Positions 1,818 to 23,765 of a stretch of DNA of 64,000 nt are shown here, one piece after another; position 1 is the stretch's first letter; each line of letters starts with the position of its first letter. The DNA lies in contig NZ_CP162488.1 in assembly GCF_041242975.1 (NCBI RefSeq), forward strand, positions 2,656,001 to 2,720,000, read 5' to 3'. The notes beneath the pieces were generated by a model, which worked only from the letters and a program-made list of their open reading frames with translations, had not been told where the DNA came from and did no database searches. A program made the translations under genes and the position numbers. The DNA comes from Xanthomonas sp. DAR 35659 (GTDB lineage: Bacteria > Pseudomonadota > Gammaproteobacteria > Xanthomonadales > Xanthomonadaceae).

Positions 1818-1849
1818 CGGCAGGGATCCATTGGGTCGATACCGCGTGA

Positions 1850-1874
1850 GTGCGCGCCGCGGGCGCAAAGGTTG
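1850..1874 (-). promoter_or_regulatory. Putative ECF-type promoter, site D (HprK-like operon)
   Basis: On the minus strand the sequence reads CAACC, then 16 nt, then GCAC, then TCACG. It ends 32 nt before the HPr-kinase-like start. The -35-like half extends as GCAACCTTT, identical to sites A, B and C. It lies in the 340-bp divergent gap 1818-2157, which also holds site F and no convincing gene. Assignment to the sigma factor at 23766 is inference from the shared motif. Confidence 0.62.
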
Positions 1875-2050
1875 CGAGGTGACCGCGCGCCCTGATCGCG
1901 CTGGATGGCGAGCGGCCGCTGCGCGCAAGGCAACGCCGCCATCGCGCGGAGATTGAGAAACGGGGCTTTCGTGGAAGGGGATGCGATCGCGTCGCAGGCG
2001 GTCCGCGCCCACTGGGTCCGGGGTTTCAACGGCGCGCATGCGCAGCGCGA

Positions 2051-2075
2051 CAACCAAAGCCGGCGCCAGCGGCAC
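2051..2075 (+). promoter_or_regulatory. Putative ECF-type promoter, site F (radical SAM operon)
   Basis: CAACC, 16 nt, GCAC and TTACG are read on the plus strand, 82 nt before the chosen radical SAM start at 2158. The half site continues as CAACCAAA rather than CAACCTTT, as in site E. It is divergent from site D in the same intergenic gap. Confidence 0.55.
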
Positions 2076-2157
2076 TTACGGCACGGCCACCTGTGCGCGG
2101 CCCCTGCTGCATGCGCTGCGGCCTCCGCCGATGGCGCCGAACGAGACCCTTCCGCCG

Positions 2158-3645
2158 ATGTCAAAGATCCAGGTCAGCCATTCCTACTTCCTGCGCTACG
2201 ACCCCAAGCAATGGGAACGCGGCAAGCCGTACCCGCCGCTGGCGACGCTGCAGGTAGCCACGCTGTTGCGCCGGCATGGGCACGAGGTGGTGCTGTTCGA
2301 TGCGATGCTCGCCGACGGCGTGGAGGACTACCCGGCCGCGGTGCGCGCGGCGCGGCCGGACCTGGTGGTGTTCTACGAGGACAACTTCAATTTCCTGACC
2401 AAGATGTGCCTGAGCCGGATGCGCGAGGCCGCCTGCCAGATGATCGCCGAGGCGCGCGCCTGCGGCAGCCGCGTGATCGTCGCCGGCTCCGACGCGTCCG
2501 ACCATCCCGAGGCGTTCCTGGCCGCGGGCGCTCACGCGGTCCTGGTCGGCGAAGGCATCGCGCCGTTGCTGGAGCTGGTCGCGCGATTGCAGCAGGCGCC
2601 GGACATCGCCGTGGCGGACTGGCTCGCCGGCGTGGCCGACGTCGCCTCGGCCGCGGCGCCGGAACTGAAGCGCGCGCACATCGGCGCGCGCCCGCCGGAT
2701 CCGCGGCTGTCCGGCCTGGCCGCGTGGGATCTGGTGGACATGCAGCGCTACCGCGACCTGTGGCTGCAGCGGCATGGCCATTTCAGCCTGAACATGGCCG
2801 CCTCGCGCGGTTGCCCGTTCCGCTGCAACTGGTGCGCCAAGCCGATCTGGGGCAACCACTACAAGCGCCGCAGCGCGCCGGAAGTGGCCGAGGAGATGAT
2901 CCACCTCAAGCGCGCCTTCGCCCCGGACCACATCTGGATGGCCGACGACATCTTCGGCTTCCACATCGACTGGGTGGAAGAATTCGCCGACGTGCTGGCC
3001 GCGGCCGACGGCTCGGTGCCCTTCACCATCCAGACCCGCGCCGACCTGGGCAGCGAGCGCATGGCCGCCGCCCTGGCGCGGGCCGGCTGCGCGGAGGCGT
3101 GGATCGGCGCGGAGAGCGGCAGCCAGCGCATCCTCGACAAGATGACCAAGGGCACCGCGGTGGAGGACGTGATCGCCGCGCGCCAGCGCCTGGGCGCGCA
3201 GGGCATTCGCGTCGGCTTCTTCCTGCAGTTGGGCTATCTGGACGAACAATTGGAGGACATCCTCGCCACCCGCGCGCTGGTGGCGCGTGCGCGCCCGGAC
3301 GACATCGGCGTCAGCGTGTCCTATCCGCTGCCGGGGACCAAGTTCTACCAGCAGGTGAAGAATCAGCTCGGCCGCAAGACCCACTGGCAGGACAGCGACG
3401 ACCTGGCGATGATGTTCCATGGCGCCTACGACTCGGAGTTCTACCGGCGCGTGCGCGACCTGCTGCACCGCCAGGTGGACCTGCAGCGCAGCGAGGCCAC
3501 CGCCGCGCCGCACGCGCATGCGCAGGCGCGCGCCGCGCTGGAGGCGCAGTGGGACGCGCTGATCGCCAGCGAAGGCCGGCATCGCACCGCGGTCGCGCCG
3601 GTGCCGGCCGCCACGCGCCGCATCCCACTGGCGCAGCACCCATGA
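2158..3645 (+). CDS. B12-binding-type radical SAM protein
   Basis: The protein has 495 residues from ATG 2158; ATG 2131 is an in-frame alternative with no better ribosome site. The N-terminal half looks like a cobalamin-binding Rossmann domain (PPLATLQVATLLRRHGHEVVLFDA). The radical SAM cluster motif is CPFRCNWC, with cysteines near residues 219, 223 and 226. It is followed by the usual barrel motifs, such as WIGAESGSQRILDKM. The classical DxHxxG cobalamin loop is not obvious, so cofactor binding may be degenerate. Family members methylate or rearrange unactivated carbons. It overlaps the nucleotidyltransferase start by 4 bp (ATGA), so the two are translationally coupled. The substrate is unknown. 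Confidence 0.85.
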   Translation: MSKIQVSHSYFLRYDPKQWERGKPYPPLATLQVATLLRRHGHEVVLFDAMLADGVEDYPAAVRAARPDLVVFYEDNFNFLTKMCLSRMREAACQMIAEARACGSRVIVAGSDASDHPEAFLAAGAHAVLVGEGIAPLLELVARLQQAPDIAVADWLAGVADVASAAAPELKRAHIGARPPDPRLSGLAAWDLVDMQRYRDLWLQRHGHFSLNMAASRGCPFRCNWCAKPIWGNHYKRRSAPEVAEEMIHLKRAFAPDHIWMADDIFGFHIDWVEEFADVLAAADGSVPFTIQTRADLGSERMAAALARAGCAEAWIGAESGSQRILDKMTKGTAVEDVIAARQRLGAQGIRVGFFLQLGYLDEQLEDILATRALVARARPDDIGVSVSYPLPGTKFYQQVKNQLGRKTHWQDSDDLAMMFHGAYDSEFYRRVRDLLHRQVDLQRSEATAAPHAHAQARAALEAQWDALIASEGRHRTAVAPVPAATRRIPLAQHP

Positions 3646-4937
3646 GCGCGCAGGCGCCCGGCCAGGCGCAACGGCCCTGCTCCGCCGATGTCCCCGCCGC
3701 CACCCCTGCCGCGCAGCCGCCGCTGAAGCGGATCGGCGCCGGCTTGCGCCTGGCCACGGAAACCCTGGCGCAGGAACTGGCGCGTCCAGGCAACGCGATG
3801 CCGCAGTGGAGCCGGTTGCAATGGCAACTGGCCGCGGCGGCGACGGCCGCGCACGGCATCGCGCCGTTGCTGAGCCGCTTGTCGGTGTGGCCGGACCGCG
3901 ACTGGAGCGCGTTCCTGGCCGAGCAACGCGCGCATGTGGGCGATCGCTACCGGCGCATCGCCGGCTTGCTCGAGCGCATCGATGCGCTGGCGCAGGATGC
4001 CGGCGTGGCGATCGTGCCGCTGAAGGGCGCGGCCCTGCACGCGAACGGCCTGTACCTGGCCGGCGACCGGCCGATGGCCGACATCGATCTGCTGGTGCGC
4101 GCCGAAGACGCCGCGCGGGTCGGCGCGTTGCTGCAGCAACTGGGCTACGTCGCCGAGTTCGCGCAGTGGAAGCACCAGACCTTCCGCCCACTGCACGCGC
4201 AAGCGGTGGCCGGCCTCGGCGAGCATCGCGATACGCCGATCAACATCGAACTGCATGCGCGCATCCAGGAGCGGCTGCCGCTGGCCACGGTCGATATCAG
4301 CGAGCGGGTCTTCCCGCGCGACAGCCGGCCTGGGTTGAACGCGTATCCGTCCAACGGCGCGCTGATGAGCCATCTGCTGTTGCACGCGGCCGGCGGCCTT
4401 TGCAGCCGCAGCCTGCGGTTGATGCATCTGCACGATATCGCGCTGCTGGCCACGCGCATGAGCGGCAAGGACTGGCAGGTGCTGTGCGACGACGCCGACG
4501 GCGCCCCATGGTGGGCGCTGCCGCCGCTGCGGCTGGTGCTGCGCTACTACCGCAACGCGATTCCGACGGCGGTGCTGGCGCGGCTGCGCGCGCATTGCCC
4601 GCCGCTGCTGCGACTGGCCTCGCGGCGATTCGATCTGACCCGGGTCTCCTGTTCGCAGCTGTGGCTGCCGGCATTGCCAGGGATCGAATGGGCGCGCTCG
4701 TTCGGCGAGGTGGCGCGCTACCTGCGGCAGCGGCTGCGGCCCTCGGCGGAGAGCCGGCAGGAGCGCGCCGACATGATCCGCACACAACTGTGGTTGCAGG
4801 GCCAGGCGTGGGTCACGCTGCCGCAACGGCGGCGTCTGCTGCTGCGCCTGCTGCGGCCGGTGCCACGGATGGATGCGCTGTATGCGGTGCGCAGCGCCTT
4901 GCAGGGGTATGCGGTGGAACCACGTAACCTCCTGTAG
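3642..4937 (+). CDS. Nucleotidyltransferase family protein (NTP_transf_5-like)
   Basis: The protein has 431 residues. The motif LKGAAL (about 127-132) followed by DRPMADIDLLV (about 142-152) matches the minimal nucleotidyltransferase family annotated as NTP_transf_5, with the paired Asp of the active site. The remainder is helical and Arg-rich. Members occur in lasso-peptide and exosortase-linked loci, but no reaction is established here. The gene is coupled to the upstream radical SAM gene. Its TAG stop is supplied by the first bases of the REP-like hairpin at 4931. Confidence 0.75.
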   Translation: MSAQAPGQAQRPCSADVPAATPAAQPPLKRIGAGLRLATETLAQELARPGNAMPQWSRLQWQLAAAATAAHGIAPLLSRLSVWPDRDWSAFLAEQRAHVGDRYRRIAGLLERIDALAQDAGVAIVPLKGAALHANGLYLAGDRPMADIDLLVRAEDAARVGALLQQLGYVAEFAQWKHQTFRPLHAQAVAGLGEHRDTPINIELHARIQERLPLATVDISERVFPRDSRPGLNAYPSNGALMSHLLLHAAGGLCSRSLRLMHLHDIALLATRMSGKDWQVLCDDADGAPWWALPPLRLVLRYYRNAIPTAVLARLRAHCPPLLRLASRRFDLTRVSCSQLWLPALPGIEWARSFGEVARYLRQRLRPSAESRQERADMIRTQLWLQGQAWVTLPQRRRLLLRLLRPVPRMDALYAVRSALQGYAVEPRNLL

Positions 4938-5001
4938 GAGCGGCTTCAGCCGCGACGCTTTCTCGGCAAGACCCGGTCGCGGCTGAAGCCGCTCCTACAG
5001 G
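4931..5001. repeat. REP-like inverted repeat, intact
   Basis: Two perfect 26-nt arms (4931-4956 and 4976-5001) flank a 19-nt loop. The arm core is TGTAGGAGCGGCTTCAGCC followed by GCGAC. A second copy, split by an insertion sequence, lies at 58081-59300. It sits between two convergent genes and supplies the TAG stop of each one (4935-4937 on plus, 4997-4995 on minus). It may also act as a bidirectional terminator or mRNA-stabilising hairpin. Such repeats are scattered through xanthomonad and pseudomonad genomes. Confidence 0.93.
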
Positions 5002-6119
5002 GAATGCGTGCGTTCGAACGCCGCCGGGCACAGCCGCCGATATAGCGCGTTGAAGCTGCGTGCGGTGTGGTCTGCATCCTCGCGCACGGCAATGCACTGC
5101 GCCGACCAGGCCAGGCGCAGGCGCAGGCCGTCGTCGGCCAGCACCTGGCGCAAGGCCTCGGCCAGGCCGGCCCAGTCGCCGGTCGGCACCGCCAGCGCCG
5201 CCGACGGCGCCCACTCCTGCAGGTGTCCGACCGCGGTGCCGACGGTCGGTACGCCGGCCACTGCCGCTTCCAGCAGCACCATCGGCCCGGCTTCGTGCAG
5301 TGACGACAGCACCAGCAGGTCGGCGGCTTCCACCAGCGGACGCAGGTCGCGCTGGGTCTTGAAGCCCAGGAAGCGGATCCGCTGCGACAACCCCAGGTGC
5401 GCGGCCAGGCGTTGCATCTCGCCATCGAGGGTATCCACGCCGACGATATCGAGATCGAACGCCACCCCGGCCCGCGCCAGCGCCGCCAAGGCGCGCAGCA
5501 AGGTCGGCTGGTCCTTGACCCGGTTGAGGCTGGCGACGTGCAGCAGCCGTGCCGGGCCGCCGGTGCGCGGGCGCGGTGCGCGCTGCGGCCAGGCGCGCAG
5601 GTCCACGCCCAGCGGAACGCGGTCGGCGGCGATGCCCAGCGCCTGCAGCGAGGCGACGATCGGGGCGCTGGCCGCGGTGACCGCATCGGCCAGTCGCAGC
5701 ACCAGCGCCTCGCGCAGCCGCCCCTGCCACTTGCGCCGTCCGCCATAGCCGATCGCGTGCAATGCGACCAGTTCGCCGCCGGCGATGTGCACCGCGCTCG
5801 GCCGCCGCAACAGGCGTGCCGCGGCCACCGCGATCAGGCTGCAATGGCCGGAAAAGATCGACTGCACCAGGTCGAACGGCGCCCGCCGGTGCTCGGCGCG
5901 AATCGCGGCGACGGCGCGTCGCCGGGTACGGCCGTCGCCGATGTTGTGGATGTGCGCGCCGAGCAGCGCCCAACGCGCCGGTACCGGTTCCTGGTGCAGG
6001 ACGAAGACGTGCACCTCGTGCATGCGCGCCAGGCGTTCGATCAGGGTCAGCAACACCGGGATCACCCGGTACTCGCCGCTGCGATCGACCCCGCCGGGCA
6101 CCACCAGCGCCAGCTTCAT
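4995..6119 (-). CDS. Glycosyltransferase, GT-B fold (GT4-like)
   Basis: The protein has 374 residues from ATG 6119. The N-terminal half has the acceptor-side pattern of GT4 enzymes (VVPGGVDRSGEYRVIP). The C-terminal half has LLHVASLNRVKDQPTLL and the donor-binding stretch HEAGPMVLLEAAVAGVP, which carries the E-x7-E spacing typical of nucleotide-sugar retaining transferases. It overlaps the upstream glycosyltransferase by 4 bp and is the last gene of a six-gene minus-strand operon. It probably adds one sugar to a lipid-linked or small-molecule acceptor; donor and acceptor are not readable. Confidence 0.88.
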   Translation of the reverse strand: MKLALVVPGGVDRSGEYRVIPVLLTLIERLARMHEVHVFVLHQEPVPARWALLGAHIHNIGDGRTRRRAVAAIRAEHRRAPFDLVQSIFSGHCSLIAVAAARLLRRPSAVHIAGGELVALHAIGYGGRRKWQGRLREALVLRLADAVTAASAPIVASLQALGIAADRVPLGVDLRAWPQRAPRPRTGGPARLLHVASLNRVKDQPTLLRALAALARAGVAFDLDIVGVDTLDGEMQRLAAHLGLSQRIRFLGFKTQRDLRPLVEAADLLVLSSLHEAGPMVLLEAAVAGVPTVGTAVGHLQEWAPSAALAVPTGDWAGLAEALRQVLADDGLRLRLAWSAQCIAVREDADHTARSFNALYRRLCPAAFERTHSL

Positions 6120-7237
6120 GCGCCGCTCCGCGCAGGCTGCTCCAGCAACTGCGCATAGGCGCGCGCCCAACGCCGGCCAACCGCCGCGAACGACAGTTGC
6201 GCGTCGAAATGGGCGCGAACCCGGGCCGGCGCCGGCAGTTCGCTGGCGGCGTGCACCAGTGCCTCGGCGAGCAGGCCGGCGTCGCCGCACGGCCACAGTT
6301 CGCCGATGCGGCCGCAGTCGGTGAGCGCGCGGAACGCCGGGATGTCGGTGAGTACCGGCGGCGTGCCGCAGGCCAACGCCTCCAGCGCCGCATAGCCGCA
6401 GCTCTCGGACAGGCTGCCGGACACGAACAGGTCCGCCGCGCGCATCAGCGTCTGGATCTGCGCATGCGCGACCTTGCCCAGCAGGTGCACACGGCCGCGC
6501 AGGCGTGGATCGCGCTGTATCCGGTCCTCTACCGTCTCCCGCATCGGGGCGCTGCCGAACGCGCAGAACAACTGCAGTCCGGGCAGCCGTGCGGCGGCGC
6601 GGGCCACGCCGTCGAGCACGGTCAAGGGATCCTTGCCGGCGCTGAGGTGCCCGACCCACAGCACGCAGGGTGCGCCGTGCAGGCCGCTGTCGCGCCGCGC
6701 CTGCGCCTGGTCGCCCGGCATGAAGCGGCAACTGGATTCGGGAATCGCGAACAGGCGCGTGGACGGCGCGAACAGGCCGGCCTGCACGAAGCCGCGCGCC
6801 AGCTCCAGCGAGGTGAAGGCGATCCCCGCGGCGGCCGCGTACCACTGCCGCCACTGCCCGCGGCGCCACCAGCGCGGCGGACGATTGGCGTGGTCCTGCA
6901 GCAGGATCGGCAGCCGCGGCAACCGCCGCGCCATCGCGCAGGCCTCGCGCGCGAACTCCAGGCCGTGCACGTGCACCACGTCGGCGCCCAGCGCCCGCAC
7001 CATGCCGGCAACATTTCCCACGCGGCGGTCTTCGTCGTCGCCTGCATCGGCGAAGTGGTACTCCACGCCGTTGCGCAGCAACTGCTCCGTGCCGTGCGCG
7101 GCCTGGATCACCGACACGCGGGTGCCGGCGCTGGCCACCGCCTCGGAGATGTCGCCCAGGGATGGCCAGTGCGCGAACACCTGCGCCGGCGCCAGTCCAG
7201 GCGGCGTGCGGACGAAATTGATCTGTGCGACGTGCAT
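6116..7237 (-). CDS. Glycosyltransferase, GT-B fold (GT4-like)
   Basis: The protein has 373 residues from ATG 7237. Visible motifs are VLWVGHLSAGKDPLTVL in the middle and SESCGYAALEALACGTPPV near the C-terminus, which form the donor site of family 4. The N-terminus (MHVAQINFVRTPPG) and VVHVHGLEF are typical of the acceptor domain. It starts 23 bp after the radical SAM gene and is coupled to the next glycosyltransferase by ATGA. Having two glycosyltransferases beside methyltransferases and an amidohydrolase suggests a decorated glycoside or oligosaccharide. Confidence 0.87.
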   Translation of the reverse strand: MHVAQINFVRTPPGLAPAQVFAHWPSLGDISEAVASAGTRVSVIQAAHGTEQLLRNGVEYHFADAGDDEDRRVGNVAGMVRALGADVVHVHGLEFAREACAMARRLPRLPILLQDHANRPPRWWRRGQWRQWYAAAAGIAFTSLELARGFVQAGLFAPSTRLFAIPESSCRFMPGDQAQARRDSGLHGAPCVLWVGHLSAGKDPLTVLDGVARAAARLPGLQLFCAFGSAPMRETVEDRIQRDPRLRGRVHLLGKVAHAQIQTLMRAADLFVSGSLSESCGYAALEALACGTPPVLTDIPAFRALTDCGRIGELWPCGDAGLLAEALVHAASELPAPARVRAHFDAQLSFAAVGRRWARAYAQLLEQPARSGA

Positions 7238-7260
7238 GCTGTCGTGGTCGTGCGGCGGGC

Positions 7261-8772
7261 CTAGATGCCCGACACCTGCGGGCGGCGCAGCTTCACCAGC
7301 CAGTTGGCCAGGTTCAGTTCCCACGGCCGGTCGTAGCGCCGGTAGCGGTAGCGCCACGCCGCCATCGCGCTCAGCCCGCGCTTGGCCCAGCGCGGCGAAC
7401 GCAGGTCCTGCGCGGTGGGATAGCGGCAGCCGAGCACGGTGACGAAGTCGCGGATGCGCTGGCGCAGGGCGTCGTCCAGCCAGGGCGCGTCGGCGTGGCA
7501 GGCGTAGTCCACCCACTGCGGCTGGGTCCATTCCTCGGGCGTGCGCGGGAACACCACCGGTGCGCCGTGCAGGTCCAGCAGCGGCATCGCCGCGCGCTTG
7601 CCGCGGTCCTTCTCGTGGCGGCTGGTCTCCGGCAGCGGCGTGTACACGTAGACAATGATTTCCGACTGGGGATTGATGCGCTTGAGTTCGCGGATGAACT
7701 CGAAGGTCTGCTCGGTCTCGCGCACGCTGTCCTGCGGCGGCGCGACCATGAACGACAGTTCCGGGATCACCCCGTTGCGCCGGCACAGCTCGGCCACCTG
7801 CAGGGTCTGGTCCGGGCGCGTGCCCTTGCGGATTTCCTTCAGCATCGCCCCGCTCGGCGATTCGGCGCCGATGTAGGCCATGCGCAGGCGGCTCTTGCGC
7901 ACCAGCGCCCAGGTGCTCTCGGACAGGTTGAGCAGCGCGTCGGCGCGCGCATAGCACCACCAGGGCATCTCCAGCTTGGCCATCACCTCCAGCAGCGGGA
8001 TCATGTCCGCCTCGCGGTCGAAGAAGTTGTGGTCGAAGAACTGGATCGAGTCGGCGCCCAGTTCCTCCTTCAGGTAGCGCAGTTCGCGCTCCAGCCGCGC
8101 CGCGGTGGGCAGCGCGGTGGCGCCGCCGAACATCGCCGCCACGCCGCAGAAGGTGCAGCGGAAGCGGCAGCCCAGCGCGGCCTGGTGCGAGGCGGTGCGG
8201 CGGCCGAGGAAGCTGCGGCCCAGGTACTGGCGCGGGTCGCCGAGCTTGGCGTACGGCAGCGCCGGCGCCGTCTCGCCGCGGCTGAAGCCGCGGTTGCGGT
8301 TGTGCACCACCTCCCCGTCGCGCTTCCACGACAGGCCGTCGATCCGCGCCAGTTCCGGACCCTCGCCGCGCAGCGCCGCGACCAGTTCCGGCAAGGTGTC
8401 CTCGCCCTGCGCGCGGATCGCGTAGTCCACGTAGGGCGCGCTCAGCGCGGTGTCGGTGTACAGCGTGGGGAAGTAGCCGCCCCAGACGATCGGCATCGCC
8501 GGAAAGCGCTCGCGGATCGCCGTGGACAGCGCGATCGACGGCGCGATCTGCGGCCCGCCCATGACGCTGATGCCGACCGCGTCGTAGCGCTGTTCCTGCA
8601 AGGCCCGCAGCGCGGTGTCGATGAAATCGCGATCGACGTTGCCGTCGATGATGCGGCTGTCGCCCTGGCGGTCCAGGGCCGCGGCCAGGTTCAGCAGCGC
8701 CAGCGGGAAGCGCGCGTTGCCGCGCGAGGTGATGGTCGGGTTGACCAGCAGCGTGTTCGGGGTGGAAGGCAT
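7261..8772 (-). CDS. B12-binding-type radical SAM protein
   Basis: The protein has 503 residues from ATG 8772. The N-terminal part resembles a B12-binding domain (FPLALLNLAAALDRQGDSR and GISVMGGPQIAPS). The cluster motif CRFRCTFC places cysteines near residues 202, 206 and 209. QFFDHNFFDR and MAYIGAESPSG are typical barrel segments. This is the BchE-like architecture of enzymes that modify carbon skeletons or methylate sp3 carbons. It differs clearly from the radical SAM protein at 2158. It lies between a methyltransferase and glycosyltransferases in one operon, so it probably modifies the same product. Confidence 0.86.
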   Translation of the reverse strand: MPSTPNTLLVNPTITSRGNARFPLALLNLAAALDRQGDSRIIDGNVDRDFIDTALRALQEQRYDAVGISVMGGPQIAPSIALSTAIRERFPAMPIVWGGYFPTLYTDTALSAPYVDYAIRAQGEDTLPELVAALRGEGPELARIDGLSWKRDGEVVHNRNRGFSRGETAPALPYAKLGDPRQYLGRSFLGRRTASHQAALGCRFRCTFCGVAAMFGGATALPTAARLERELRYLKEELGADSIQFFDHNFFDREADMIPLLEVMAKLEMPWWCYARADALLNLSESTWALVRKSRLRMAYIGAESPSGAMLKEIRKGTRPDQTLQVAELCRRNGVIPELSFMVAPPQDSVRETEQTFEFIRELKRINPQSEIIVYVYTPLPETSRHEKDRGKRAAMPLLDLHGAPVVFPRTPEEWTQPQWVDYACHADAPWLDDALRQRIRDFVTVLGCRYPTAQDLRSPRWAKRGLSAMAAWRYRYRRYDRPWELNLANWLVKLRRPQVSGI

Positions 8773-8795
8773 GGTGGCGGACCGCAGGGCGAGGC

Positions 8796-10720: not shown

Positions 10721-10722
10721 GG

Positions 10723-11571: not shown

Positions 11572-11651
11572 ATCCACTCTCCACTCGCCAGCCGGCGTCG
11601 CCGGGAACCGCCGTGTCGGCCGCAAGCGCGGATCGCACGGTACCCCCGTGA

Positions 11652-11676
11652 GTGCGGACCGCGCCGCATTTGGTTG
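11652..11676 (-). promoter_or_regulatory. Putative ECF-type promoter, site E (methyltransferase operon)
   Basis: CAACC, 16 nt, GCAC and TCACG are read on the minus strand. The -10 side (GCACTCACG) is identical to site D. The -35 side reads TCAACCAAA. It lies in the 139-bp gap between wzz and the methyltransferase, the only sizeable gap in this minus-strand run, which argues for a separate transcription start. Confidence 0.52.
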
Positions 11677-11710
11677 AATCGGCGACCGCGCCGGCGATGT
11701 GCCGCTGCGC

Positions 11711-15925: not shown

Positions 15926-17037
15926 GCCGGCGTCGCCTCGAAGGCCAGGCAGGCGGCGATCACCCGCTCCACCGCCTCCGCGTCCAGGGTCGGCCCGATC
16001 GGCAGGCTCAGCACTTCGTCCTGCAACCGCTCGCACAGCGGCAGGCGGTGTCCGCTCAGGGCGGCATACGCCGGTTGCCGGTGCGGCGGCAGCGGATAGT
16101 GCACCAGGCACTGGATGCCGCTGGCCAGCAGGTGACGTTGCAGCGCATCGCGCCGCGCGCAGCGCACCACGAACAGGTGCCAGGCATGCCGCGCCTCGTC
16201 GCGTACCTGCGGCACCTGGATCCGCGGGTGGACGATGCCGGCGCGGTAGCGCTGCGCGATGGCGCGGCGCCGCGCAATGTCGGCATCCAGGTATTTCAGC
16301 TTGACCCGCAGCAGCGCCGCCTGCATCTCGTCCAGGCGCGAATTCACGCCTTGCACCAGGTGCCGGTACTTGATGTCCGAGCCGTAGTTGCGCAGCATCC
16401 GGATCCGCGCCGCCAGTTGCGCATCGTCGGTGACCACCGCGCCGCCGTCGCCCAGCGCGCCCAAGTTCTTGCCGGGAAAGAAGCTGAAGCCGGCGGCATC
16501 GCCGAAGCTGCCGGCGTGGTGTCCGTGCAGGCGCGCGCCATGCGCCTGCGCCGCGTCCTCGATCAGCAGCAAGCCGTGGCGCCGCGCCAGCGCCTGCAGT
16601 GCCTGCATGTCGGCCAGTTGCCCGTACAGATGCACGGCCATGATCGCCCGCGTGCGCGGCCCGATCGCGCGCTCCACGCAGTCCGGGTCCAGATTGAAGC
16701 TGTGCGGGTCCGGCTCCACCGGCACCGGCCGCAGGCGGTTCTCGCTGATCGCCAGGAAGCTGGCGATGAAGGTGTTGCCCGGCACGATCACTTCGTCGTC
16801 GTCGCGCAGCCGGCCCAGGTCGCGGTAGCCGCGCAGGATCAGGGTCAGCGCGTCCATGCCGTTGCCCACGCCGATCGCATGGCGGTTGCCGCAATACGCG
16901 GCGAACTCGCCCTCGAACGCCTCCAGCTCCTCGCCCAGCACGTACCAGCCGGAGTCGATCACTCGCGCCGCCGCCGCCTTCAGTTCGTCGGCGTAGCGGG
17001 CGTTGAGCGCGCGCAGGTCCAGGAACGGCACGCTCAT
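15922..17037 (-). CDS. PLP-dependent sugar aminotransferase (FdtB/DegT family)
   Basis: The protein has 371 residues from ATG 17037. It begins [13 protein letters not shown], as sugar aminotransferases do. The PLP lysine is in [16 protein letters not shown] (about K190), and [12 protein letters not shown] holds the PLP-ring Asp. With the ketoisomerase at 19590 and the acetyltransferase at 18920 it completes the last steps towards a dTDP-3-acetamido-3,6-dideoxyhexose such as Fuc3NAc or Qui3NAc. Which isomer is made cannot be read from the sequence. Confidence 0.9.
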
Positions 17038-17969
17038 CGGAGATCCCAGGCGTAGAAATCGTGGACCACGGCGCGCGCGCCGAAGCGCTCCTTCTGCTCG
17101 ACCAGGCCGGCGTTGAGTCCCTGGCCCTGCCGTTCGGTGGAGATGCCGAGGCTGAAATAGTCGCGCTGCGCGTAGACGTGCTCGATCAGTTCGGCCAGCA
17201 GCAGGCTCAAGGCATCCACGCGGCGGCCCTGCTCGGCGCAGGCCAGGTACTGGGTGTGCACCACGCGGCCGAAGTCGTACAGCAGCGTAGCCGCCAGCAG
17301 GGTCTGGCCGTCGCGCACTTCGTACAGCACCAGGTGCTCGGGAAAGCGCCCGCACAGCAGGCGCAGTTCCTGCAGGCTATGCGTCGGGCTGGCGCCATGA
17401 CGCTGCAGCACCTCGCTCAGCAGCGCATGGAACTGCGTCGGATCGTCGTTGCGCTGCACGCGCAGGCCGGCCTTGCGCGCCTTGCCGACCGAGCGCCGCC
17501 GTTCGGCGGCGAAGCGCAGCGGCTCGCGCAAGGCGATCGCCGAGGACAGGTCGCGCCGTTGCAGGCGTGCGCCGAGCCTGTGCAGGGCGTAGAGATCCTC
17601 TTCCGCGGGCGAGGCGTGGAACAGGTGCGGCACCGCCTTGTACAGCAGTTCGTGCGCGCCGCGGGCGCGGTAGTGCGCCGCGATCCGCTCGAACGCCTCC
17701 AGCGTCGCCGTCGCGCGCAGGCCGTGCGCCGACAACAGCCCGGCATAGCTCAGCCCGGCATGGCTGACCACGCGCGTGCCGTCCAGGTTGGCCGGGAACA
17801 CCGCCACCAGCGCACCGTCGCGCTCGACCAGCAACGAGGCATCGACGAAGCGTTCGGCGTGGTAGTCCATGTAGCCGCGCCGGTGCAGCAGGTTGCCGTT
17901 GCGGGACTCGGCGACCAGGGCGTCCCAGGCCGGCGCGTCGGCGGGCGTGTAGGCTCTAACCGATAACAT
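17034..17969 (-). CDS. GNAT / FemAB-like acyltransferase
   Basis: The protein has 311 residues from ATG 17969. The C-terminal half has the acetyltransferase pattern ([19 protein letters not shown], then [15 protein letters not shown]). The N-terminal half ([20 protein letters not shown]) resembles the first GNAT lobe of FemAB-like proteins seen in polysaccharide loci. It overlaps the propeller gene by 14 bp. It probably acylates an amino sugar or attaches an amino acid, but the acyl donor is unknown. Confidence 0.7.
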
Positions 17970-18912
17970 CGCCGCCCTCGCCTGCGCCGTGCGCGATGGG
18001 CGCCACCGCCACGCCGAAACCGTCGTGCCCCATGGCGTTGCCGTTGTAGAACAGCAAGGCGCTGTCGCCGTGCCGGATCAGCGCCGGGTAGCACAACGTG
18101 TGCGCGTCCCAGCCGTCGTCCGACAGGGTCAGGCCCAGGGCCGCGTCGCAGCGCTCCCATCGACGGCCGTCGTCGCTGCGCGCGACCCCGGGGAAATAGG
18201 CGCCGTCGCGATTGCCGCGGGTGAAGTACATCAGGTAGCCGCGGCCGTGGCGGTACACGCGTGGCCGGCCGATGCGGTATTCGCTGCCCTGCGGCTGCAG
18301 GCAGACCGTGTCCTGGCGCGGGATCGCCTGCAGGTCGTCGGTCTCGGCATAGCGGATGTGGTAGCGCGGGAACGGCGCGCCGTCGATCCATTCCCAGTCG
18401 TCGCCGACCGCGTACCACAGCCGCCAGCGGCCATCCTCGTAGCGCGCCGAATGCACCGCGGCGATGGTGCTGCGGCCGGGCGCGCGTTCCAGCAGCGGCG
18501 TGTCCTGGCGGCGCTGGAAGGTCTCGCCGCCATCGGTGGAGACCGCCAGGCCGGTAAAGGCCAGGAACTTGGCCTTGGCCACGCGCTGGAAGCCGACGTA
18601 GAACATGTACAGCCCATCCGGCGCGGCCACCACGTCGCCGAGGATCATGCCGTTGTCGTCGAAGCAGCCGTCGCGGCCGATGTCCAGCACCGGCTGCGCG
18701 CCGACCCGCACCACCTGGGTGGGATCGTCGCCGCGCACGTCGACGTAGCCGATGCGGCTGACCCCGGCCGCGTCGCGAAAGCCGGCGTAGACGCGGATCA
18801 GTGCGTCGTCCAGGCGGTACGGGGTCGGGGTCAGCGCCGAGTGCCGCATCCAGCCGCCGACGCCGTCGCGTGCGGTCGCGAACACCAGGCCGCGTTTCTT
18901 CCAATCGAACAT
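17956..18912 (-). CDS. Five-bladed beta-propeller protein (GH43/GH130-like)
   Basis: The protein has 318 residues with no signal peptide. Repeated blade-like stretches (RVYAGFRDAAGVSRIGYVDV, GLYMFYVGFQ, RWRLWYAVGDD, GYLMYFTRGN, ALLFYNGNAMG) fit a five-bladed propeller related to families 43, 62 and 130. Similar cytoplasmic propellers occur inside many polysaccharide clusters next to sugar-modifying genes; their reaction is not settled. It overlaps the FemAB-like gene and lies 7 bp after the acetyltransferase gene. Confidence 0.7.
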   Translation of the reverse strand: MFDWKKRGLVFATARDGVGGWMRHSALTPTPYRLDDALIRVYAGFRDAAGVSRIGYVDVRGDDPTQVVRVGAQPVLDIGRDGCFDDNGMILGDVVAAPDGLYMFYVGFQRVAKAKFLAFTGLAVSTDGGETFQRRQDTPLLERAPGRSTIAAVHSARYEDGRWRLWYAVGDDWEWIDGAPFPRYHIRYAETDDLQAIPRQDTVCLQPQGSEYRIGRPRVYRHGRGYLMYFTRGNRDGAYFPGVARSDDGRRWERCDAALGLTLSDDGWDAHTLCYPALIRHGDSALLFYNGNAMGHDGFGVAVAPIAHGAGEGGDVIG

Positions 18913-18919
18913 GGACGTC

Positions 18920-19585
18920 TCAGAGGGTCACGTCGAAGCTGGACTTGCCGGCCACCGCGCGCGCCGGCGCGCCGACATACACCCGGCCCGGCTCGGTGTC
19001 GCGGGTGACCAGCGCGCCGGCGCCGATCACGTTGTCCGCGGCGACCTTGACCCCGTCGCTGAAGGTGGCATTGACCCCGACGAAGCTGCCCTGGCCGATC
19101 TCGCAGTAGCCGGAAATCACCGCATGCGAGGCGACGAACACATGGTCCTGGATCACCGTGCGGTGGCCCACGTGGTTGCCGCTCCACAGGATGCAGTTGT
19201 CGCCGATGCGGGTGAACGGCTGCACCACGTTGCCTTCGAACACGAAGCAGTTCTCGCCCAGCTGCGCGTTGCGCCAGACGAAGGCGCGCGAACTGACGTA
19301 GCTGGCCAGCCGGTAGCCGCGCCGCTTGGTCTCGGCATAGAAACGCATGCGCAGCCGGTTGAGGCCGGTGGCGGGAATCGCCACGAACGCCTCCACCTGC
19401 GCCGGCGGATACAGCCGCTCCAGGTCCTCGTAGGCCACTACCGGCCGCTCGGCCAGGGTCGGCGCGGCGAGGTAGTCGCGCTCGGCGCTGAACGCCAGCA
19501 CCTCGTAGTCGCTGTCGTGGCTGAAGTATTCGCAGGCGATCTGCGCCAGCTCGCCCGCGCCGACGATCACCAAAGGCCGTGCCAT
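18920..19585 (-). CDS. Left-handed beta-helix acetyltransferase (NeuD/PglD-like)
   Basis: The protein has 221 residues. The N-terminus (PLVIVGAGELAQIACEYF) is the Rossmann-like domain of PglD/NeuD enzymes. From about residue 110, hexapeptide repeats of the left-handed helix are visible (NCILWSGNHVGHRTVI, ASHAVISGYCEIGQGSFVG). The PglD-type catalytic His can be placed at GNHVGH or ASHAVI. It is probably the acetyltransferase that finishes the 3-amino-3,6-dideoxyhexose, though an O-acetyltransferase is possible. It lies 4 bp from the ketoisomerase gene. Confidence 0.85.
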   Translation of the reverse strand: MARPLVIVGAGELAQIACEYFSHDSDYEVLAFSAERDYLAAPTLAERPVVAYEDLERLYPPAQVEAFVAIPATGLNRLRMRFYAETKRRGYRLASYVSSRAFVWRNAQLGENCFVFEGNVVQPFTRIGDNCILWSGNHVGHRTVIQDHVFVASHAVISGYCEIGQGSFVGVNATFSDGVKVAADNVIGAGALVTRDTEPGRVYVGAPARAVAGKSSFDVTL

Positions 19586-19589
19586 GCGC

Positions 19590-20006
19590 CTACGCCTCCT
19601 GCCGGTGCACGCCGGCCGCTTCGCGCAGGAACTCGTCGTAGTCGAGGATGTAGTCGGCCGGGTCGTAGGCCTGGTCGGCCAGCACCATCAGCACGCAGTC
19701 GTCGCTGAAATCGTACAGGTCGCGCCACACCATGCTGCCCAGCAGCAGGCCCTGGCTGGGATCGTCCAGCACCACCTGCGTCGGCCCGTTGCCGTCGTCG
19801 AGCAGGAACGACACCGAGCCGTGCAGGGCCACCGCCAACTGGTTGAGCCGGCGGTGCGCGTGCTGGCCGCGATGCACGCCGTGCTTGGTCGCGAACAGGT
19901 AGTAGACGCGGCGGATGTCGAAAGGCACGTCGCGTTGCTGTTCAAGGGCGACCAGCAAGCCGCGCTCGTCGCCATGCGTACGCAACTGGATTCGTTCGAT
20001 TGCCAT
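19590..20006 (-). CDS. dTDP-4-dehydro-6-deoxyglucose 3,4-ketoisomerase (FdtA/QdtA family)
   Basis: The protein has 138 residues from ATG 20006. The cupin fold is shown by RRVYYLFATKHGVHRGQHAH and LNQLAVALHGSVSFLLDDG, followed by MVWRDLYDFSDDCVLMVLAD, the family signature. It moves the keto group of dTDP-4-keto-6-deoxyglucose from C4 to C3, preparing for amination. In Xanthomonas campestris the same activity is fused to an acetyltransferase in WxcM; here the two are separate. It is the first gene of the polysaccharide operon, 43 nt downstream of site C. Confidence 0.9.
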   Translation of the reverse strand: MAIERIQLRTHGDERGLLVALEQQRDVPFDIRRVYYLFATKHGVHRGQHAHRRLNQLAVALHGSVSFLLDDGNGPTQVVLDDPSQGLLLGSMVWRDLYDFSDDCVLMVLADQAYDPADYILDYDEFLREAAGVHRQEA

Positions 20007-20049
20007 GAGTGTGCCCGACACGGACTCCGACGCGGAGTTACCAGGCTGA

Positions 20050-20074
20050 GTGCCGGCGTACCGCGGAAAGGTTG
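20050..20074 (-). promoter_or_regulatory. Putative ECF-type promoter, site C (polysaccharide operon)
   Basis: The minus strand reads GCAACCTTT, 10 nt, CCGGCAC, that is CAACC-N16-GCAC. It ends 43 nt before the FdtA-like start. The outer parts are identical to sites A and B. It is back-to-back with site B in the 226-bp gap 20007-20232. Confidence 0.68.
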
Positions 20075-20122
20075 CGCCCCACCACAGGCCGCGCCGCCGC
20101 GCGGCACGCGACGCCACCCACG

Positions 20123-20147
20123 CAACCTTTTGCCGCGCACCCGGCAC
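20123..20147 (+). promoter_or_regulatory. Putative ECF-type promoter, site B (cytochrome operon)
   Basis: The plus strand reads GCAACCTTT, 10 nt, CCGGCAC. It ends 85 nt before the cytochrome b start. It shares all 16 outer bases with site A in front of the sigma factor gene. Confidence 0.68.
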
Positions 20148-20232
20148 CCATCTGCGACCGCTGCCGTGTCGCCGCACCTCGATAGCGGCGACACGCATTC
20201 CACCGAGACGACCTGGACAAGGACCCGCCACC

Positions 20233-20838
20233 ATGACTTCCTCCACGCAGGCCGACGACGCCACCGCCCGTGCCGCGGCATCCGCGCCCGAACCGCGCAG
20301 GTCCGCCGGCGCCGCGTTGCCGCGGCCGCTGGTGCTGCTGCATTGGCTCACCGTGCTGTGCCTGGTGCTGGCGGCGGGCCTGATCCTGCTGCGCGAGGAA
20401 GTGGACGGCCGCGCCGTGCGCCAGTGGTTGCTGGAGGGGCACCGCCATTTCGGCCTGTTCGTGCTCGGCCTGTTCTTCCTGCGCGCGGCGTTGCGGCTGC
20501 GCCTGGGCAAGCGCGACGACGCCGAGGCCGGCTCGCGGCTGCTGCGCGCGCTCGCCGGACTCACCCACCTGGCGATGTACGCCTTGCTGTTGACCCTGCC
20601 GGTGCTGGGCTGGGCGCTGAGCCAGTCGATGGGCAAGCCGGTGCATCTGTTCGCCGCCACCTTGCCGGAGCTGGTCGCCCCCGATCCGGACCTGGCCGAC
20701 ACCCTCGGCGCCTGGCACGTGTATGCCGCCTGGGTGCTGCTGGGGTTGATCGTGCTGCACATCGGTGCGGCGCTGTGGCACCACTTCGTGCGCCGCGACG
20801 ATCTGCTGCGGCGAATGCTGCGCTTCCGCCGCGGCTGA
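20233..20838 (+). CDS. Cytochrome b561-type membrane protein
   Basis: The protein has 201 residues and four membrane helices (about 32-50, 70-92, 105-125 and 150-175). Histidines in helices suited to bind two b hemes are visible: LLHWLTVL, EGHRHFGLF, LTHLAMY, and HVYAAWVLLGLIVLH. It would pass electrons between the quinone pool and periplasmic acceptors. It is followed by the outer-membrane cytochrome-porin and a soluble cytochrome c on the same strand, so the three genes look like an electron path from inner to outer membrane. The direction of flow is not readable. Confidence 0.87.
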   Translation: MTSSTQADDATARAAASAPEPRRSAGAALPRPLVLLHWLTVLCLVLAAGLILLREEVDGRAVRQWLLEGHRHFGLFVLGLFFLRAALRLRLGKRDDAEAGSRLLRALAGLTHLAMYALLLTLPVLGWALSQSMGKPVHLFAATLPELVAPDPDLADTLGAWHVYAAWVLLGLIVLHIGAALWHHFVRRDDLLRRMLRFRRG

Positions 20839-20899
20839 GCCGCGCTTCCACGCCCTTCCCTCGTCCGCCGCCGCGCCGACCCGTTCAAGGACCCCTCGC

Positions 20900-22261
20900 A
20901 TGCAGACCGCCCAGTCTCCCTCTTCCTTCTTCCGTCCCGGCCCGCTGCGTGGCGCCGAACAGGTCCTGCTGTGGACAACGCTTGGCTCCCTGTTGCTGCT
21001 GGTCAGCCCGCGCGCCGCGGCGGTGCCGGCGTTCGCGCGGCAGACCGGTTCCTCCTGCGCGGACTGCCACATCGGCGCCTACGGCCCGGCGCTCACGCCC
21101 TACGGCATGCGCTTCAAGCTCAACGGCTACACCGACAGCGACGGCAACGGCACCAAGATCCCGGCCTCGGCGCAGCTCACCGGCACCCGCAGCGTGCCGG
21201 TGCGCGGCAAGACCAACAACCAGCTCAGCGCGGCCGACCTGTACCTGGCCGGCCGGGTCACCGACAACATCGGCGGCTACATCAAGGTGTCCACCACCAA
21301 CAACGGCAAGGACAAGTTCACCACCAAGCTGGACAACGTGGACCTGCGCTTCGTCGCCAAGACCTTCAAGCTCGGCGGCAAGGACGCGCTGGTCGGGGTC
21401 AGCGTCAACAACAACCCGGGCAGCCAGGATCCGATCGGCGTGCTGCCCAACGCCTCCGGCCTGGGTCCGGCGTCGGCCTATGCCAGCAGCACCACCCTGC
21501 TCAACCAGTCCTCGCTGTCCAACCGGGTGATCGGCACCAGCGTCTACGGCGTGTACGACCGCAACTGGTACGGCGAGATCGGCACCTACAACGCGCTGCC
21601 GGTCTCCACCCAGGACGACCTCGGCTACGCGGTCGGCGGCGACCCGGGCAAGCTCAGCGATACCGGCTACCTGCGCCTGAGCTACATGAAGGACATGAAG
21701 AAGCAATTCTTCTCAGCCGGCGTGGTGGCCCTGACCACGCGCCGCCAGCTGCCGCGCAGCACCGGCCCGCGCGACGACTTCACCGACCTGGGCTACGACC
21801 TGAACTACCAGTTCCTGGGCACCCGCGAGCACATCGTCAAGCTCGGCTATCTGAACATCTACGAGCGCCGCCGCTACGGCAGCGCGGCGATCGACCCGGA
21901 CGACCCGAGCGTGGCCGGCCTGCGCCGCGGCAGCATCCGCGACCAGTCGATCAACCTCAGCTACACCTACAGGCAGACCTATGGCCTGCTGCTGGCGCAC
22001 TTCATCAACACCGGCTCGGACGATGCGTTCCGCTACCGCCCGTACGGCGCGCCGGATACCACCAGCAACCTGATCAGCGCCTCGTGGGCGCCGTTCGGCA
22101 AGGACGACAGCTACTCGTCGATCTCCAACCTGCGCCTGTCCGCCACCTGGTTCCGTTTCAGCAAGTTCAACGGCACCACCGGCAACGTGTTCGGCGCCCT
22201 GCCGGTGACGCGCCCGCACGACCTCAACCAGTTCTCGCTGGCGCTGAGCCTCGCGTTCTGA
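20900..22261 (+). CDS. Cyc2-like outer-membrane cytochrome-porin fusion
   Basis: The protein has 453 residues. After a hydrophobic N-terminus (about 22-41), a single heme c motif CADCH lies at about 53-57 within AFARQTGSSCADCHIG. Then GPALTPYGMRFKLNGY leads into a beta-barrel of about 390 residues with alternating strands, ending in SLALSLAF with a terminal Phe. This order, one heme on an 'ARQT-CxxCH-FKLNGY' segment followed by a porin, is that of the Cyc2 family used for outer-membrane electron exchange, including iron oxidation. Function here is inferred; a heme-tagged porin with another role is possible. Confidence 0.75.
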   Translation: MQTAQSPSSFFRPGPLRGAEQVLLWTTLGSLLLLVSPRAAAVPAFARQTGSSCADCHIGAYGPALTPYGMRFKLNGYTDSDGNGTKIPASAQLTGTRSVPVRGKTNNQLSAADLYLAGRVTDNIGGYIKVSTTNNGKDKFTTKLDNVDLRFVAKTFKLGGKDALVGVSVNNNPGSQDPIGVLPNASGLGPASAYASSTTLLNQSSLSNRVIGTSVYGVYDRNWYGEIGTYNALPVSTQDDLGYAVGGDPGKLSDTGYLRLSYMKDMKKQFFSAGVVALTTRRQLPRSTGPRDDFTDLGYDLNYQFLGTREHIVKLGYLNIYERRRYGSAAIDPDDPSVAGLRRGSIRDQSINLSYTYRQTYGLLLAHFINTGSDDAFRYRPYGAPDTTSNLISASWAPFGKDDSYSSISNLRLSATWFRFSKFNGTTGNVFGALPVTRPHDLNQFSLALSLAF

Positions 22262-22290
22262 CCCCGCCCTTCCCCCACGCACGGATCGTC

Positions 22291-22686
22291 ATGAAACCAG
22301 CCAATCTCCCCTTGTGGTGCACCCTGATGGCCAGCCTGCTGCCGCTCGGCGCCGCGCTCGCCCCGGCCGCGCAGGCCGCCGGCGGCCTGTCCGGCGCCGG
22401 CGTGTTCGCCACCGAATGCGCCGAATGCCATAGCGCGTCGCCCGGCAAGAACAAGAAGGGGCCGACCCTGTTCGGCGTGGTCGGCCGCAGCGCCGGCAGC
22501 GTGCCGGACTACCGCTACTCGGAGGCGATGAAGAAGACCCAGTGGACCTGGACCGACGACAAGCTGCGCACCTACCTGTCGCAGCCCGCGTCCAAGGGCA
22601 TTCCCGGCGCCAACATGAAGTACGACGGGCTGGACGACAGCAAGCAGCTCGAGGAGCTGATCGCCTATCTCAAGACCCTGCATTGA
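22291..22686 (+). CDS. Class I cytochrome c (c2-like), periplasmic
   Basis: The protein has 131 residues with a signal peptide ending near AAQAA (about 30). The heme motif is CAECH (about 43-47), with KKGPTLFGVVGR after it. The axial methionine lies in IPGANMKYDG (about M109), as in mitochondrial-type c2 cytochromes. It lies 29 bp downstream of the cytochrome-porin gene and is the likely soluble carrier between it and inner-membrane partners. Confidence 0.92.
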   Translation: MKPANLPLWCTLMASLLPLGAALAPAAQAAGGLSGAGVFATECAECHSASPGKNKKGPTLFGVVGRSAGSVPDYRYSEAMKKTQWTWTDDKLRTYLSQPASKGIPGANMKYDGLDDSKQLEELIAYLKTLH

Positions 22687-22939
22687 GCCTGGCGCTCGGC
22701 CGCCGCGGCGTCGAAGCTGAACCCGGCGTCCGTCGCCGCGCGGGCGGCCTGTCGCCGCCGCGCCGCGGTGCCGATAATGGCGGCCCACCGCGGGGCGGGC
22801 GGCATCCGACCGCCGCCCCGTCCCCGCGCCCACCCTGCGATCCGATCCGCGAGTATCGAGCGACCGTGCACCAGCGCCCTTCCGCCGATTTCCTGCGCGC
22901 TTCCGCCGCCGCGGCGGTCGCCCCCCGGCACCGCCGCGC

Positions 22940-23701
22940 ATGGGCGTTTCCGGCGGCATGACCGGGACCGTGGGCGACGTGGCGGCAGTGGCCGCGCGCA
23001 GGGCGCCGCGCCTGGGCGCGGTGGCGTTGGCGGTCGCGCTGTGCCTGCCCGGCGCGACCCTGGCCGCCAGCGTCGGCGGCGCGGTCGGCGTCAGTTCGCA
23101 ATTGGTCGATCGTGGCATCGCGGTGACCGCCGACACCCCCAGCCTGCAACTGTCCGGCTACTGGCTGCCGGCGGCGGGCTGGGCGGTGGGCGCCTCCGCC
23201 AGCACCGCGCTGGACGCGCCGGGCCACCAGATGCTGACCACGGTCGAACTGTCGCGCAGCTGGACCCTGTCCGACAGCTGGCAGATGCAGGCCGGGCTGC
23301 TGCGCTACAGCTACCCCGGCAACCGCATCAACCGCCTGCTCAACCGCGACGAGGTCAGCCTCGGCTGGTCCTACCGCGACCGGCTGAGCGCGTCGGTGGC
23401 CGCGTTCACGCTGTCCGACAGCTATCCCGGGCGCTGGTACGGCGCCGCCGACCTCACCGTGCACCAGCCGTTGCTGGCGCAGGTCTCGCTGTCGGCCGGG
23501 ATCGGCATCAGCCGGGCGCCCTCGGCCCTGTACGGGCTGGGCTACGAGAACCACTACAGCTACGGCCACGCCGGCCTGATCTGGAACAAGGGCGCCTGGA
23601 GCGCGGAGATCGACCGCGTGTTCAGCGATGGGCATAGCATCTACGCCAGGGGCGGCCGCGGCCTGTGGCCGTGGGTGGTGACCGTCTCCCGCGCGTTCTG
23701 A
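22940..23701 (+). CDS. Small outer-membrane beta-barrel protein (TIGR02001-like)
   Basis: The protein has up to 253 residues; ATG 22940 and ATG 22958 are both possible. A hydrophobic signal (about 26-42, ending LAAS) is followed by amphipathic strands of 8-12 residues (GVSSQLVDRGIAV, PSLQLSGYWLP, WQMQAGLLRYSYPG). It ends WVVTVSRAF with a C-terminal Phe, as outer-membrane barrels do. It resembles proteins annotated as 'Gcw_chp' of unknown function. The gap 22687-22939 shows no promoter-like CAACC-N16-GCAC element and no clear terminator, so it may extend the cytochrome operon. Confidence 0.72.
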   Translation: MGVSGGMTGTVGDVAAVAARRAPRLGAVALAVALCLPGATLAASVGGAVGVSSQLVDRGIAVTADTPSLQLSGYWLPAAGWAVGASASTALDAPGHQMLTTVELSRSWTLSDSWQMQAGLLRYSYPGNRINRLLNRDEVSLGWSYRDRLSASVAAFTLSDSYPGRWYGAADLTVHQPLLAQVSLSAGIGISRAPSALYGLGYENHYSYGHAGLIWNKGAWSAEIDRVFSDGHSIYARGGRGLWPWVVTVSRAF

Positions 23702-23709
23702 TCCGGATG

Positions 23710-23734
23710 CAACCTTTCCGTGCCGACCCGGCAC
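23710..23734 (+). promoter_or_regulatory. Putative ECF-type autoregulatory promoter, site A
   Basis: GCAACCTTT, 10 nt, CCGGCAC sits in the 64-bp gap before the ECF sigma gene and ends 31 nt before its ATG. ECF factors usually drive their own operon, so this site anchors the proposed motif CAACC-N16-GCAC for the other five sites. Confidence 0.7.
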
Positions 23735-23765
23735 ATACCGGTGCCCGTTGCCAAGCCAGCCTTCC

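Follow-up and report, generated by a model that had tools for sequence, protein, structure and literature searches.

Gene content of the island and a motif shared by six operons

We analyzed a 64,000-nt stretch of Xanthomonas sp. DAR 35659 (contig NZ_CP162488.1, positions 2,656,001 to 2,720,000; hereafter the window), which contains an island of surface glycan and cytochrome genes, a gene for an extracytoplasmic function (ECF) sigma factor and a short motif, CAACC-N16-GCAC, upstream of six operons. Genes were called by codon usage and families named using Pfam and NCBIfam. The sigma factor (23766..24353, + strand) contains sigma2 and sigma4 domains (Sigma70_r2, 35.4 bits, cut-off 24; Sigma70_r4_2, 44.6 bits, cut-off 25.7) with no sigma3 domain matched, and its protein matches the sigma-E structure in PDB. 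It is followed by an anti-sigma gene (24350..24991, +) and a subtilase gene of family S8 (24988..26328, +). In the anti-sigma protein, C12, H38, C42 and C45 are invariant in 48 sequences, giving H-x3-C-x2-C with a further ligand; its zf-HC2 score of 18.7 bits falls under the 22.2-bit cut-off. Together with the position of its gene beside the sigma gene and a helix at 97–116, assigned as transmembrane by inspection, these features characterize a zinc-binding anti-sigma (ZAS) protein. Its C-terminal periplasmic domain (~142–213) may resemble an I9-like subtilase prodomain. The subtilase has a lipobox-like signal, an N-terminal stretch ahead of the catalytic domain (S8, 113.5 bits, cut-off 21.8) and catalytic residues D204, H237 and S387 (GSSMA) that are invariant in 34 sequences.

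A preliminary description of the sequence had placed CAACC-N16-GCAC at six sites, A to F, each 31–85 nt before the first gene of an operon, and had proposed that the sigma factor controls them all. All six sites were recovered with their coordinates and strands. In extended form, sites A (23709..23737, +; GCAACCTTT-N13-GCAC-AT-A), B (20122..20150, +; GCAACCTTT-N13-GCAC-CC-A), C (20047..20075, −; GCAACCTTT-N13-GCAC-TC-A) and D (1847..1875, −; GCAACCTTT-N13-GCAC-TC-A) precede the sigma gene, a cytochrome b561 operon, a polysaccharide operon and an HprK-like/ABC operon, while sites E (11649..11676, −; CAACCAAA-N13-GCAC-TC-A) and F (2051..2078, +; CAACCAAA-N13-GCAC-TT-A) precede operons starting with a methyltransferase, MT_a, and a radical S-adenosylmethionine (SAM) protein, rSAM_F. 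Distances to the genes are 31 nt for A, 85 nt for B, 43 nt for C, 32 nt for D and 55 or 82 nt for F (ATG codons checked); for E, two GTG codons lie at 74 and 80 nt and a TTG at 26 nt. The longer strings reported earlier, GCAACCTTT-N10-CCGGCAC in A, B and C and GCACTCACG in D and E, are likewise present, and the claimed lack of sites in the rightward 40 kb holds, with no CAACC-N16-GCAC in the rest of the window beyond 23734. Missing from the earlier count was a seventh exact match (19821-19845, −), which carries CAACCAGT and lies inside the FdtA-like gene (19590-20006). Being intragenic and absent from the CAACCWW-N14-GYAC-NN-A matches described below, it was rejected as a promoter and is probably due to chance.

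The window thus holds seven exact matches, of which A–F are six, against 0.96 expected, a number reached by none of 100 shuffles. Across the 5.4-Mb genome, the short motif is not enriched (86 matches versus 87 for a reversed control) and was discarded as a genome-wide regulon signature. The preliminary description had suggested such a scan, taking a motif common genome-wide as evidence against a regulon; the short form is literally that common, the extended forms are not. CAACCWW-N14-GYAC-NN-A has seven genomic matches (control, three), six of which are A–F and one of which lies outside the island at 4637747. GCAACCTTT-N13-GYAC has four exact genomic matches, sites A–D, all inside the island; with one mismatch allowed it has eight (control, 13), and GCAACCAAA-N13-GYAC, also with one mismatch, has five including E and F (control, 12). 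The genomic frequency of the short form would fit a chance clustering of a GC-rich pattern. The excess in the window, the extended-form counts, the confinement of exact GCAACCTTT-N13-GYAC to the island, and the conservation and sigma linkage described in the next section together leave this explanation with practically negligible probability. Elsewhere in the genome, a near-identical pair of short-motif matches (G000:C1:229854-229878 and 613888-613912) perhaps represents a repeated element.

Four of the operons behind these sites are predicted to have glycan-related or export functions. Operon C (11711..20006, −) comprises nine genes, for an FdtA-like isomerase (19590-20006), a NeuD-type acetyltransferase (18920-19570), a 318-aa protein (17956-18912), a GNAT protein (17034-17969), a DegT aminotransferase (15922-17037), a Wzx-like flippase (14672-15925), a GT2 glycosyltransferase (13731-14672), a 391-aa protein guessed to be Wzy (12559-13734) and a Wzz-like protein (11711-12562). 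Neither the 318-aa nor the 391-aa protein has a Pfam match above cut-off, and NCBIfam gave no match for the FdtA-like or the guessed Wzy protein. Judging from these families, the operon seems to make a Wzx-type polysaccharide in which an amino-deoxy sugar is acylated. The six genes of operon E (4995..11577, −) encode MT_a (10723-11577; likely start GTG 11577 or 11571), an amidohydrolase (9491-10720), a second methyltransferase (8796-9494), a B12 radical SAM protein (7261-8799) and two GT4 glycosyltransferases (6116-7237 and 4995-6119). Operon F encodes rSAM_F, a B12-binding radical SAM protein (2131..3645, +; ATG at 2131 or 2158), and a nucleotidyltransferase-like protein (NTP_transf_5; 3642..4937, +) named by Pfam/NCBIfam. 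Both radical SAM proteins, rSAM_F and that of operon E, match AprD4, a radical SAM enzyme of the apramycin pathway, by sequence. Operon D starts with an HprK-like P-loop protein (759..1817, −), which scores 38 of the 200 bits needed for HprK-related kinase A (TIGR04352), followed by part of an ABC exporter (3..590, −) that is cut by the window edge and continues to its left (L145:14917-16590). Also left of the window, near the island, an uninterrupted minus-strand frame of 2909 aa (L145:2-8731) is cut by the end of that flanking sequence.

Operon B, on the plus strand, encodes a cytochrome b561-type membrane protein (20233..20838), a Cyc2-like fused cytochrome–porin (20900..22261) and a monoheme cytochrome c (22291..22686). 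Between it and the sigma gene lies a gene for a TorF-like outer-membrane protein (22940..23701, +; TIGR02001, 33.6 bits, below the 47.15 cut-off), a relative of which adjoins the sigma gene in all 80 named loci introduced below. Cytochrome c maturation genes lie downstream of the subtilase; they adjoin the locus in those Xanthomonas loci that reach that far and had no match in the 48 non-Xanthomonas loci.

Conservation of the motif and its linkage to the sigma gene

Relatives were obtained by searching genome contigs with the sigma protein, and the best 80 of 155 were used for locus counts. Of these loci, 32 are from Xanthomonas and 48 from other taxa, chiefly Dyella, Rhodanobacter, Luteibacter and Frateuria. 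The nearest among them was X. bonasiae, with a 97% identical sigma factor, and even closer genomes may be missing from the list. One contig labelled Candidatus Eremiobacteraeota (L090) carries the island at Dyella/Rhodanobacter-like identity and is perhaps mis-binned.

In the 250 nt before each orthologous gene, we searched for CAACC-N16-GYAC and found it in 278 of 301 upstream regions of the six operons, across two bacterial families. It precedes the sigma gene in 75 of 80 relatives (site A, with the same 16-nt spacer), b561 in 57 of 62 (B), FdtA in 67 of 72 (C), the HprK-like gene in 23 of 29 (D), MT_a in 27 of 29 (E) and rSAM_F in 29 of 29 (F). The 16-nt spacer dominates, other spacers of 10–22 nt occurring at most seven times in any gene set, and the best of ~300 permuted patterns reached at most five in any upstream set. 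Three bases past GYAC, at a position that played no part in the search, all 278 motif-bearing sites have an A (276 in the tabulation, the remaining two lying too close to the end of their sequence). The preliminary description had proposed comparing the same gaps in related genomes, and this comparison bears out both the motif and its spacing.

Related sequences are not independent events, yet the two families have diverged and the spacers are mostly variable between footprints. These features also bear on whether the sites arose as copies of a single mobile or recently duplicated sequence, an idea that the longer string common to A, B and C in the window would favor. With spacers and flanks that vary between sites and species around a constant motif, and orthologous positions retained across two families, we consider such an origin highly improbable.

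For co-occurrence, we used 149 genomes of the family, ten of which encode a close sigma factor (80–100% identity). These ten contain 39 exact GCAACCTTT-N13-GCAC sites, whose positions correspond to A–D, versus six sites in five of the 139 other genomes. No such site was found in the 11 of these 139 genomes that encode a sigma relative of 31–45% identity. Sigma relatives of 39–45% identity in other genera of the family (L041-L048) belong to genomes without a TTT-form site. Among 30 chosen sigma-positive genomes, to which these searches were confined, rSAM_F was detected in 29 (one match partial, at a contig end) and MT_a in 29, using an MT_a query read from 11637, 20 codons ahead of the probable start. 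Single island genes may be decaying in two genomes: rSAM_F has an in-frame stop (L169) in that of Xanthomonas vasicola (L062), and MT_a has one (L182) in that of Xanthomonas sp. GPE 39 (L053). X. albilineans (L080) retains the sigma, anti-sigma, subtilase and cytochrome genes; rSAM_F and MT_a were not found genome-wide, nor was any operon C gene within its 20-kb locus. The operons are, therefore, separable.

Could the two conserved blocks instead be half-sites for a DNA-binding protein, activating or repressing, that has the sigma gene among its targets? Their separation of about two helical turns would suit such a protein, and the reading as a sigma promoter rests on sequence comparison. The blocks form neither a direct nor an inverted repeat, however, their spacing is rigid, the motif tracks the sigma gene, and among the named genes of the six operons only the sigma gene matched a DNA-binding family, making half-sites a rather improbable explanation.

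The sites fall into two classes. A–D mostly carry TTT after CAACC throughout the footprints and E carries AAA; F has AAA in Xanthomonas and drifts elsewhere, losing it in Dyella/Luteibacter-type loci with CAACC-N16-GCAC retained. This split, together with the ten ECF-type (group IV) factors encoded by X. campestris 8004 according to PMC6085468, raises the possibility that the sigma factor drives the TTT class only and that another ECF factor reads E and F. We regard this division as unlikely: E and F have the same spacing, the same GYAC and the same invariant A as A–D, the drift of F leaves the core motif intact, and rSAM_F and MT_a accompany this sigma factor in 29 of 30 genomes, sigma-positive genomes being the ones searched.

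Candidate targets also exist outside the island. In 18 sigma-positive relatives (Dyella, Luteibacter, Rhodanobacter and related genera), GCAACCTT-N14-GYAC-NN-A gave 67 matches versus three for the control and was present in 17 of the 18 genomes. By position, 54 matches lie within the island and 13 outside; 14 outside stretches were inspected, one of which (L251) turned out to be the island. Five of the 13, all from Dyella genomes (L243, L246, L247, L250 and L253), lie near or before the start of a methyltransferase gene followed by a flavin-reductase-like gene (Pfam scores of 39.3 and 30.3 bits, each from a single protein), joined in one Dyella genome by a Pfam-confirmed acyltransferase gene behind the pair. 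This pair is a candidate for a recurrent second target in these five genomes. Of the other outside sites, one precedes an AhpC/TSA protein gene, one lies 308 nt ahead of a TonB receptor gene, and several fall within predicted frames or lack a clear target.

Outer-membrane electron conduits at the sigma locus

The outer-membrane protein of operon B is Cyc2-like, with a monoheme segment and a porin barrel. It contains AVPAFARQT followed by CADCH, matching the Cyc2 signature AXPXFAR[Q/K][T/Y] with a single CXXCH, and a 16-strand porin is fused behind the cytochrome segment. [F/Y]ARQT with CXXCH is found in 63 of 64 loci, with the P of the signature absent in L059 and L074 and Y replacing F in most non-Xanthomonas loci. 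A Foldseek comparison of the protein model with viral proteins returned porin-like entries only.

In four other loci (L092, L107, L113 and L128), the genes at this promoter position encode a decaheme cytochrome together with an MtrB/PioB porin. The cytochromes of L092, L107 and L128 score 254.9–258 bits for MtrA (TIGR03508, cut-off 192.2) and the porins of L092 and L128 score 254.9 and 233.6 bits for MtrB (PF11854, cut-off 23); TIGR03509 gave 168–193 bits in four loci, below its cut-off of 240. These relatives thus hold the MtrA–MtrB pair of decaheme cytochrome and porin. The motif precedes MtrA in six of 15 scored loci (L130 and L234 not being among the 15), one of them on a contig other than that of the sigma gene; a score of 13 was reached by 4 of 360 random windows, which were drawn from loci holding real sites. 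That MtrA always stands under the motif is thereby ruled out. In L126, L129, L130 and L131, MtrAB genes lie behind the S8 gene and the motif scan found none upstream.

At the sigma locus, the Cyc2-like gene is present in 62 of 80 relatives, MtrAB in nine and both in none. This strict exclusivity holds at the locus and was rejected genome-wide: MtrB (PF11854) occurs in all 13 of the genomes examined that have no b561–Cyc2 operon at the locus and also in seven of 32 with a Cyc2-type locus, while nine of 11 genomes without the operon at the locus encode a Cyc2-like paralog (32–37% identity) elsewhere. The comparison suggests what stays together, as the conduit type changes at the locus and the promoter remains. 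The Cyc2-like identity, the MtrAB swap, the invariant A and the possible prodomain-like part of the anti-sigma protein were absent from the preliminary description.

A predicted ECF regulon and its relation to known systems

ECF promoters usually combine an AAC-type −35 element with a spacing of ~16 nt. GCAACC(TTT or AAA)-N13-GYAC-NN-A is very probably the −35/−10 promoter of the sigma factor at 23766, driving a regulon formed mostly by the island. The single ECF regulon put forward in the preliminary description thus receives strong support from comparative sequence, namely the 278 of 301 upstream regions, the invariant A, the 39 versus six sites with and without a close sigma gene, the presence of rSAM_F and MT_a in 29 of 30 sigma-positive genomes, the motif ahead of MtrA in six of 15 scored loci and the 67 versus three matches in the 18 relatives. 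Several observations weigh against it: 23 of the 301 upstream regions do not have the motif as written; TTT and AAA are split systematically by operon, so that reading of both classes by a single sigma factor is an assumption; nine of 15 scored MtrA loci have no nearby motif; two of the six MtrA sites (L092 and L107) lack the otherwise invariant A; and X. albilineans has the sigma gene without rSAM_F and MT_a.

In the proposed model, the zinc-type anti-sigma protein, encoded directly after the sigma factor, would retain it at the inner membrane until proteolysis involving the adjacent subtilase releases it. Once free, the sigma factor would transcribe the operon that encodes it as well as a small regulon located mostly nearby. 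In this regulon, operon C would supply a surface polysaccharide of Wzx type containing an amino-deoxy sugar, E and F a branch for modifying and transferring sugars, D an export unit of HprK-like and ABC proteins, and B a conduit for electrons in the outer membrane, made of b561, the Cyc2-like cytochrome–porin and cytochrome c. One regulatory protein would thus probably switch on both a surface sugar polymer and an outer-membrane electron-transfer protein. The sites, how well they are conserved, their occurrence together with the sigma gene and the protein domains are observed; that this sigma factor recognizes the motif, which way electrons flow, what is produced and how release occurs are what we infer. 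A bolder version remains doubtful to us: the sigma program would pair a glycan with a conduit whose parts can be exchanged, Cyc2-like for MtrAB-like, although the two are unrelated and one promoter serves both. In this version, control would be of a new kind, the anti-sigma protein carrying a copy of the neighboring subtilase's prodomain, and protease and anti-sigma protein would monitor the envelope through competition for this prodomain-like domain or through its cleavage.

With this work, an ECF sigma factor of Xanthomonas and relatives for which we found no described regulon gains a concrete predicted regulon and promoter. Judged by sequence, this ECF regulon has a predicted promoter that is well defined, combines a glycan with a swappable conduit, which is unusual, and possibly also has a new anti-sigma design. 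It would link surface polysaccharide in plant- and soil-associated bacteria to conduits of Cyc2-like and MtrAB type, which are familiar mainly from iron oxidizers and metal reducers, and the relation of the anti-sigma protein to the subtilase prodomain, if true, would represent a new route of ECF activation.

Canonical ECF sigma/ZAS pairs include E. coli sigma-E and R. sphaeroides RpoE–ChrR. The island shares with them the two-domain sigma factor, the AAC-type −35 with a ~16-nt spacer, the adjacent sigma and anti-sigma genes and Hx3Cx2C in the anti-sigma protein. It differs in that the C-terminal part of the anti-sigma protein may be prodomain-like, the next gene encodes a subtilase and the predicted regulon is a glycan and electron-conduit island. 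In Geobacter, the extracellular xap polysaccharide of the cell surface probably serves outer-surface cytochromes, a pairing that resembles the one proposed for the island; no shared ECF regulon is known for xap. A literature search, with ECF classification literature outside its scope, gave no description of the present regulon among the matches listed. Among RpoE2–RpoE10 of X. campestris, RpoE4 (XC_2566) is a guess at the ortholog of the island sigma factor. X. campestris 8004 encodes the ECF-type factors RpoE1–RpoE10, of the same genus and sigma class as the island factor; in the accessible part of PMC6085468, only RpoE1 showed a virulence phenotype among the ECF deletions and no regulon like that of the island was found for the ten. 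An ECF22 is mentioned for X. campestris in PMC10880074.

Cyc2 is defined by AXPXFAR[Q/K][T/Y], a single CXXCH and a porin barrel, with Xanthomonas among the highly sampled genera with homologs, in PMC8406198; PMC10654088 reports homologs in Rhodanobacteraceae. The island protein has the motif, the one CXXCH and a porin-type barrel, and departs from the consensus in the Y for F of most non-Xanthomonas loci. Unlike Cyc2 systems, its gene lies beside b561 and cytochrome c genes, under an ECF-type promoter and adjacent to a polysaccharide operon; Cyc2-like iron oxidation here is putative. The decaheme cytochrome and MtrB/PioB porin of L092, L107, L113 and L128 resemble MtrAB/PioAB, from which they differ in a TIGR03509 score below cut-off and in having upstream the ECF-type motif that also stands before the Cyc2-like gene.

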